Below are positions 15,435-16,469 of a DNA stretch of 21,553 bases, piece by piece. The notes under the pieces are model-generated. The model saw only the letters and a list, made by a program, of their open reading frames with translations, had not been told where the DNA came from and ran no database searches. Source of the stretch: a virus; the IMG/VR virus record IMGVR_UViG_3300043410_000756, positions 1-21,553 of that record; one strand, 5' to 3'. The stretch's first letter is position 1, and each line of letters begins with the position of its first letter. Position numbers and translations under genes: made by a program.

Positions 15435-15447
15435 ACATATAGGGTGC

Positions 15448-15490
15448 CTATGGGGGGCTATAGGGGGGCTATAGGGGGGCTATAGGGGGG
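15448..15490 (+). repeat. G-rich 11-bp tandem repeat (CTATAGGGGGG), four copies
   Basis: Four tandem units run from 15448 to 15490, the first lacking one A. A degenerate related stretch (ATATAGGGTG) precedes them at 15437. Each unit ends in six Gs, so the plus strand has four G6 runs separated by five-base CTATA loops, matching the classic G-quadruplex pattern. The 11-bp period puts the G runs on about the same face of the helix, as in iterons bound by a replication initiator. It lies between two replication-type genes, outside any open frame with a start. Confidence 0.9.
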
Positions 15491-15559
15491 TTATACAACC
15501 GAATAACGAGCGTAATACGTCCGTATAAAGAACTATTGCAAATACCTAAAGAGGAGAAT

Positions 15560-15604
15560 ATGATTCTTCTCAGCGCCGTAAGAAGCGCAAAAGGTGGTAT
15601 TTGA
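15560..15604 (+). CDS. 14-codon leader peptide upstream of the replication initiator
   Basis: A strong binding site (GAGGAG, 15551-15556) is followed by ATG at 15560 and a short open frame encoding MILLSAVRSAKGGI, ending in TGA at 15602-15604. The stop overlaps the first base pairs of the large hairpin (15603-15713) that hides the next gene's Shine-Dalgarno sequence. A ribosome stopping there would cover roughly the first dozen downstream bases and so melt the 5' strand opposite the initiator's binding site. The leader's own GAGGAG can pair with CTTCTC (15566-15571), giving another possible control point. This short frame is supported by its binding site and position, not by conservation data. 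Confidence 0.55.
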   Translation: MILLSAVRSAKGGI

Positions 15605-15713
15605 AATAGTCTCCATCGGGGACGGTCTCAGATACCGTAATTTCACACCCGCAATGGGTGGATACCGCCCGGTAATTCTTACACTGGGATCGTCCACCGA
15701 TGGAGATTGTTTT
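15603..15713 (+). promoter_or_regulatory. Long leader hairpin sequestering the initiator's ribosome binding site
   Basis: Bases 15603-15619 pair with 15697-15713 (17 pairs), then after one bulged A (15696) bases 15620-15631 pair with 15684-15695 (12 pairs). Of the 29 pairs five are G-U wobbles and none is a true mismatch. The interior can add TACCG (15633-15637) with CGGTA (15670-15674), and CACCC with GGGTG around a GCAAT loop (15646-15660). An alternative local hairpin, ACGGT with ACCGT (15622-15638), competes with the upper stem. The 3' strand contains GGAG (15702-15705), the binding site of the ATG at 15714, paired to CTCC (15611-15614). Wobbles only work in the plus-strand RNA, so the structure is probably functional as RNA in the initiator transcript. 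Confidence 0.75.
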
Positions 15714-16469
15714 ATGAAACGCCCATCATTTCAGTTTTACCCTAGCGACTGGCTTAGGGATACTGCCCTTCGTACTTGTTCTGTAAGCGCACGCGGATTA
15801 TGGATTGACATGATCTGCTATATGCACGAAGGAACCCCATACGGATACCTTAAGGTTAACGATAAGGTTATCCTTCCATCAAACCTTGCAGCTATGTGCG
15901 GGGCAACCTTAGAAAATGTTGAAGGATGGCTAAAAGAATTGGAAGTCGCTGGAGTTTTCAAAAGGGACGAAAACGGCGTTATCCATTCAAAACGCATGAT
16001 AAGGGATGAAGATGTAAGAAATTCAAGGGCTTCCGGTGGAAAACTTGGTGGTAATCCTGCCCTATTAAAGACCTCAAAGGTTAACCATAAGGTTAATTCA
16101 AAGGTTCAAAATAAGGATAAGCAAAATCCAACCCCTTCATCTTCATCTTCTTCTTCATCTTCTTCTTCATTAGAAACAATAAAACCCTTGTCGAATAAAT
16201 TCGACGAATTCTGGTCTACTTGGCCTTCCAGTACTCGCAAGGTAGGAAAAATGGCTTGTCTGAAAAAATGGGAAGCCAGAAAACTTGATTCTATTGGTGA
16301 CAGAATTATTGCCCATGTGAAGTCGATGAAGAACTCTAAGGCTTGGGCTTCTGGATTTGAGCCTGCGCCATTGACGTACATAAATCAGAGCCGGTGGGAG
16401 GATTCTCAGGATCAAGTTGCAGACCCTAATGTCCTTTTTGGTCGCCGTCTTATTTCGGGAGGGGAATAA
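15714..16469 (+). CDS. Phage replication initiator / replisome organiser (O-like)
   Basis: The 251-aa product starts at 15714 (MKRPSFQFYPSDWLRD), the usual opening of this family; an in-frame GTG at 15594 would only translate the hairpin. Residues 1-125 form a winged-helix type domain (FYPSDWLRDTALRTCSVSAR, then GVFKRDENGVIHSKRM and ASGGKLGGNP). A linker with eleven consecutive serines (142-152) leads to a C-terminal domain with KFDEFWSTWP, KKWEARKLD and PAPLTYINQSRWED (163-230), typical of phage helicase-loading or replisome-organiser proteins. It should bind the origin and recruit the helicase encoded two genes downstream. Translation is likely controlled by the leader hairpin. The stop overlaps the zinc-finger gene as TAATG. 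Confidence 0.8.
   Translation: MKRPSFQFYPSDWLRDTALRTCSVSARGLWIDMICYMHEGTPYGYLKVNDKVILPSNLAAMCGATLENVEGWLKELEVAGVFKRDENGVIHSKRMIRDEDVRNSRASGGKLGGNPALLKTSKVNHKVNSKVQNKDKQNPTPSSSSSSSSSSSLETIKPLSNKFDEFWSTWPSSTRKVGKMACLKKWEARKLDSIGDRIIAHVKSMKNSKAWASGFEPAPLTYINQSRWEDSQDQVADPNVLFGRRLISGGE
16137..16169 (+). repeat. TCT/TCA trinucleotide run encoding eleven serines
   Basis: Eleven codons, all TCA or TCT, form a short microsatellite in the linker of the replication initiator. It is in frame and changes linker length without changing the domains on either side. The codons are unmixed with other serine codons, suggesting slippage rather than old conservation. Confidence 0.9.

Follow-up and report, generated by a model that had tools for sequence, protein, structure and literature searches.

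The gene for a replication initiation protein in the virus record analyzed here (21,553 bases, all of which we call the window) is preceded by a structured RNA, and sequence comparison places this RNA in a family of phage 5' leader RNAs that has not been described before. With moderate confidence, we read it as a riboswitch-like leader, transcribed from a promoter of its own, that switches translation on or off at the head of the replication genes. Two mutually competing folds, both with compensatory changes, carry this reading: a long stem, P3, that buries the initiator's Shine-Dalgarno sequence, and a compact domain closed by helix PK1 (Table 1).

Table 1. Features of the leader RNA and its surroundings, in window coordinates
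Feature	Position	Strand	Basis
Sigma-70 promoter (putative): TTGCAA 15536-15541, 17-nt spacer, TATGAT 15559-15564	15536..15564	+	sequence match
Whole structured leader RNA	15573..15709	+	R1 covariance-model match, 101.5 bits, full length
P1: GCGC 15573-15576 : GCGC 15585-15588	15573..15588	+	outer pair G-C/A-U/G-U, one A-C
PK1, closing helix: GUAAGAA 15578-15584 : UUCUUAC 15676-15682	15578..15682	+	covariation
P2: GGUGGUAU 15593-15600 : AUACCGCC 15662-15669	15593..15669	+	covariation
P2', alternative to P2	15595-15603 : 15629-15637	+	covariation simulations
P3, the earlier reader's stem: 15602-15631 : 15684-15714	15602..15714	+	computed fold
H1, hairpin in 5' arm: GUCUCC 15609-15614, loop AUC, GGGGAC 15618-15623	15609..15623	+	invariant in 16 members
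P5 hairpin: CACCC-GCAAU-GGGUG	15646..15660	+	4/5 pairs covary
Weak local hairpin in 3' arm: UCCA-CCGA-UGGA	15693..15704	+	computed; covers Shine-Dalgarno GGA when P3 is absent
Shine-Dalgarno GGAG of the initiator	15702..15705	+	GGAG or GGGG in 16/16 distinct members
Replication initiation protein, 251 aa (PHROG 270)	15714..16469	+	gene/protein-family analysis

Genomic setting

The window has no end repeats. Among the genes read leftward are those for an exonuclease and an Erf-like annealing protein; the rightward genes run in the order YdaS-like regulator, short DUF1376 protein, initiator, CHC2-type primase fragment and DnaB-like helicase, with the leader element placed between the short DUF1376 gene and the initiator gene. 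The initiator's ATG is its true start, as MKRP is nearly invariant in an alignment of 23 relatives. We rejected an N-terminal extension from GTG 15594 because relatives begin at MKRP and the frame is not kept. Within the initiator gene, CTTCAT/CTT repeats at 16135-16170 code for a poly-serine linker, and their number is unlike that in contig L056. Between the short DUF1376 gene and the promoter lie 5.4 tandem copies of a G-rich 11-mer, TATAGGGGGGC (15438-15495), of which the near-identical contig L057 has one fewer; these repeats are possible iterons of an origin.

A long stem buries the initiator's Shine-Dalgarno sequence

An earlier note on this DNA had described a 29-bp leader hairpin of 17 and 12 pairs around one bulge, with five G-U wobbles and no mismatch. 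This hairpin is real. Folding of 15540-15730 with RNAfold gives -82.7 kcal/mol, against -47.7 +/- 4.5 in dinucleotide shuffles (z -7.8; 0 of 200 shuffles as stable). The computed fold keeps the described stem and adds one outer pair, the weakest, giving 12 pairs, bulged A15696 and then 18 pairs (30 in total, with five G-U and no mismatches). The initiator's GGAG is buried as had been claimed, through pairing with CUCC 15611-15614, and the ATG begins 8 nt beyond it. Across the family P3 is 25-30 bp long, and in all 16 distinct members the Shine-Dalgarno sequence lies within it and the start codon just after it.

The note's further claim, that selection has acted on the pairing of the plus-strand RNA, is borne out by the relatives: P3 cells in the 16 distinct sequences hold 56 G-U against 2 A-C, so the pairing is kept on the plus strand only. 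In the same comparison the two arms evolve very differently, with 2 changes inferred over the 24 positions of the 5' arm and 21 over the 26 of the 3' arm, as is expected if the 5' arm serves two folds. Mismatches are tolerated in lower P3 in L141, L142 and L144, and the changes that break P3 in these members are located in the loop of the weak local hairpin at 15693-15704, which may be the form that the 3' arm takes in the other state.

A second, compact fold covaries best

The plain hairpin is nevertheless only half of the object, as the best covariation lies in four helices that had gone unnoticed, namely PK1, P2, P2' and P5. The loop of P1 (GUAAGAA 15578-15584; 7-8 nt across the family) is the 5' strand of PK1, which is formed entirely of standard pairs in 16 members, has three covarying pairs and carries the 3' strand consensus UUCUYAC. 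P2 joins the strand after P1 to the strand before CGG by eight pairs, and P2' pairs the inner half of the same 5' strand with the last stretch of the 5' arm. The hairpin H1 and P3 are mutually exclusive, and covariation is silent on H1 because its sequence never varies. The loops and the internal-loop sequence (CGG-AA, GCG) are very conserved across members. With its compensatory changes, the element has a conserved, receptor-like domain, as translational riboswitches do. The competing local hairpin that the earlier note had placed at 15622-15638 is present as well; the three pairs at its core are invariant, and the fifth is broken in 8 of 16 members.

Covariation was assessed on a hand-made block alignment of the 16 distinct sequences. 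Since these are related, the null was tree-aware, with columns evolved independently along the inferred tree, each with its own number of changes. No single base pair is significant alone among 16 related sequences, and the covariation test that the earlier note had proposed was therefore made at the level of helices, where it is positive. Covarying pairs per 5-bp window number four in P5, four in P2, three in PK1 and two in upper P3. The maximum per window in 400 null alignments was 0 in 349, 1 in 49 and 2 in 2, so that none reaches three while the value for upper P3 is matched by 2 of 400. P2' has 26 doubly changed standard cells, and 0 of 1000 simulations had as many standard or doubly changed pairs, a result somewhat flattered by a register picked by eye for each sequence group. 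Shuffle and slide controls on six sequences agree with the helix-level covariation.

The two folds compete

A single strand can enter either P2 or P2', and some nucleotides of P2' and of H1 also belong to P3. In computed folds made before the 3' arm of P3 exists, PK1, P2 or P2' and P5 form in most members, and nearly all have H1; P3 replaces this structure when the 3' arm has grown by 13-25 nt. This alternative pairing, which in the computed folds occludes the Shine-Dalgarno sequence as in a translational riboswitch, is 10-21 kcal/mol more stable than the compact fold, and thus any switch must be settled while the RNA is being made, or else by strong binding. In the modelled compact fold the Shine-Dalgarno sequence still sits mostly in the weak hairpin, with a free fraction of 2-28% in most members and 69% in L153; 'on' therefore describes a site that opens far more readily, not one that is free. 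P2 and PK1 might also coexist with P3, their loops stretched along the stem, as far as geometry alone is concerned.

A putative promoter precedes the element

The earlier note had accepted that a transcript starting downstream of 15620 would count against its hairpin, and the promoter-like site lies upstream instead. From its sequence, transcription in the window is expected to start near 15571. We sought sigma-70-like promoters in a narrow window upstream of every distinct member, and the mean score was 10.0, against 6.18 +/- 0.31 in shuffled sequence (16 members). The site is placed alike in nearly all of the 16: the -10 box ends 6-8 nt before P1 and the spacing is 17 nt in most members, with a weak match in L174 and L144. 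We infer from these matches that a dedicated promoter starts transcription at the element's first base; read-through from earlier genes is possible as well.

The element travels with replication clusters

Pattern scans that used the loop sequence, the 3' arm, the 5' arm and the PK1 strand as DNA queries found the element in about 20 viral contigs, comprising 16 distinct sequences after removal of duplicates. The loop sequence matched L058, another phage in which the next gene is a different replication protein, and the other three queries added L139-L150, L153-L156, L174-L176 and L178. Both arms served as search patterns and the sample is biased towards them, though members found via the 3' arm still have an unbroken 5' arm. 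Widening the scan with TCTCCATCGGGGACGG brought in no further members. The covariance model R1, built from six distinct sequences, found 17 loci at 90-162 bits, with the next best at 19.7, in 595 kb that included most other initiator relatives. A scan of host genomes gave 14 matches, all chance on inspection, and the isolated phages and plasmids scanned gave no real match. In isolated Pseudomonas, Shewanella, Vibrio and Acinetobacter phages, DUF1376 genes abut or nearly abut the preceding gene, which leaves no room for the element.

The earlier reader had recognized no RNA family here, and no Rfam family matches: there was no Rfam 15 covariance-model match at E<=5 in the window and L139, and L174 had only chance matches, far below gathering. 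No published description was found in the literature searched, which took in few subscription journals.

The flanks of the element are unlike among contigs, yet it always stands just before the first gene of a replication cluster. What follows is a gene for a DUF1376/primosomal protein or for an initiation protein, or else an inserted homing endonuclease gene ahead of one. Among nine downstream proteins scanned, seven were DUF1376/primosomal, while L141 has a GIY-YIG and L150 an HNH endonuclease. These two genes (L141 3116-3406 and L150 1892-2467, both on the minus strand) are inserted at the exact junction of the leader RNA with the following gene, which implies that they use the leader's ribosome-binding site; each insertion precedes a further early gene, DUF1376-like in L141. 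Between the window and L058 the element is 97% identical, whereas DnaB is 70% and the initiator gene only 48% identical. We also compared the leaders of related initiator genes, as the earlier note had proposed. We fetched 54 relatives, and then 80 loci with the alignment of 23 (the two sets overlap); only the nearest share the element, and most lack it, having other leaders or none. By these comparisons, the element travels with replication clusters rather than with the PHROG 270 protein.

Regulatory RNAs seem to occupy the slot before the initiator habitually, since an int-alpA RNA and further, different hairpins are also seen there. In another phage, L033, the int-alpA RNA (Rfam RF02996, 39 bits) at 2907-2975 immediately precedes a homologous initiator; our element does not match RF02996 at all. 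L003 (~2885-2960) and L028 (~2907-2990) share a second, unrelated RNA upstream of the initiator, terminator-like, with a long stem, a three-way junction (CTGGTRTTRCCCAGTCCGCCAAC), a T-run and compensatory-looking differences. Within roughly the 140 bases before the initiator, L035, L037, L038 and L030 have another hairpin followed by T-runs, and a GGTTCTA strand inside this hairpin is complementary to an earlier loop, TAGAACC; this may be a pseudoknot or an anti-terminator. L007, too, has a different hairpin in this slot.

Discussion

We propose that the growing transcript would first fold compactly, with PK1 closing P2 or P2', H1 and P5, an order that comes from computed folds and, for PK1, P2, P2' and P5, from covariation. 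While this state lasts, H1 would tie up the strand complementary to the ribosome-binding site, and the initiator could be translated through the weak local hairpin. Once complete, the 3' arm is predicted to invade its 5' partner and close up as P3 over 25-30 bp, burying the Shine-Dalgarno sequence and turning the gene off. The gene would stay on if some signal held the compact domain, perhaps a metabolite or a host or phage factor that members have in common, and the switch would thereby set when, or how much, initiator is made. Sequence and computation give the family, its covarying helices, the mutually exclusive pairings, the occluded Shine-Dalgarno sequence and the promoter-like sites; we infer that translation occurs from the compact fold, that something stabilizes this fold, and that the timing of replication is under control.

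Translational riboswitches resemble the element in joining a conserved 5' domain with covarying helices to an alternative stem that hides the Shine-Dalgarno sequence; the element differs in the unusual length of its occluding stem and in occurring only in phage contigs, ahead of replication genes. By this analogy it may work like a translational riboswitch or a kinetic leader, and status as a riboswitch needs a ligand.

Other readings start from the same features. The phage lambda N leader has a long RNase III hairpin in the early leader next to the Shine-Dalgarno sequence. Our element shares this arrangement but adds a second covarying fold and highly conserved sequence. Host RNase III might likewise cut the 25-30 bp stem and remove the occluding arm, which would turn initiator translation on, and the stem's length (uninterrupted for at least about 20 bp, as in RNase III-processed leaders), its plus-strand pairing and its position between promoter and Shine-Dalgarno sequence all fit. 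We nonetheless consider this unlikely, because such cleavage needs none of PK1, P2, P2' or P5, the helices that covary best, does not require the roughly tenfold stronger conservation of the 5' arm over the 3' arm, and sits poorly with the mismatches tolerated in lower P3. The MS2 maturation-gene leader and hok mRNA are systems in which competing folds formed at different times decide translation, and they are like the element in this, with unrelated sequence and structure. A ligand-free timer, in which the initiator is translated until P3 forms irreversibly so that each transcript gives one initiator pulse, would account for the strong downhill step to P3 and for a takeover that comes only late in synthesis, but does not demand invariant loops or internal-loop sequence (CGG-AA, GCG), and we give it a low probability.

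Such conserved loops and internal loops are also a feature of ribosomal-protein leaders, and a host or phage protein that recognizes the compact domain might repress or activate translation. The downstream protein cannot be the common regulator, as it may be a PHROG 270 protein, a diverse DUF1376 protein or a homing endonuclease, and a protein-binding leader seems improbable to us. We regard it as very unlikely that the element acts as DNA or as a free small RNA, whether as origin structure, mobile palindrome or antisense RNA. Its own promoter, its near-identical copies in unlike contexts and the G-rich iterons at 15438-15495 would suit such a role, but the excess of G-U over A-C speaks against it, as do an orientation that is always sense to the next gene, an end that falls at that gene's Shine-Dalgarno sequence and the lack of a conserved U-tract to end a small RNA. 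There is also no 12-nt match to the element elsewhere in the window, which is a partial genome; for this reason, and with no Rfam C4 match, we rejected a C4/P4-type antisense immunity RNA. An intrinsic terminator or attenuator was set aside because the U-tract after the stem is absent in L142, L174, L175 and L176. A leader peptide, MILLSAVRSAKGGI, ending at 15604, was rejected since L056 has lost its ATG and other members have their stops elsewhere; its apparent coding conservation is that of the RNA itself. Distances between conserved blocks differ among members by numbers not divisible by three, which shows the element to be non-coding, and as there is no shared stop position either, a leader-peptide attenuator was likewise rejected.

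Descriptions of structured leader RNAs by which a phage gates its own replication genes are rare. This one is notable for its dedicated promoter, for two competing folds that both show compensatory changes and for an RNA sequence far better conserved than the surrounding proteins. It is also a small natural case of switching that is settled while the RNA is transcribed, and it gives Rfam a new family. More tentatively, and at odds we hold to be short of even, it could be an orphan phage riboswitch that senses a ligand and so ties the onset of genome replication to some metabolite or state of the host, in a promoter-plus-leader cassette passed between unrelated phages. The element probably decides when the phage begins copying itself, and if it senses something, then what the phage measures before committing to genome copying becomes directly testable.
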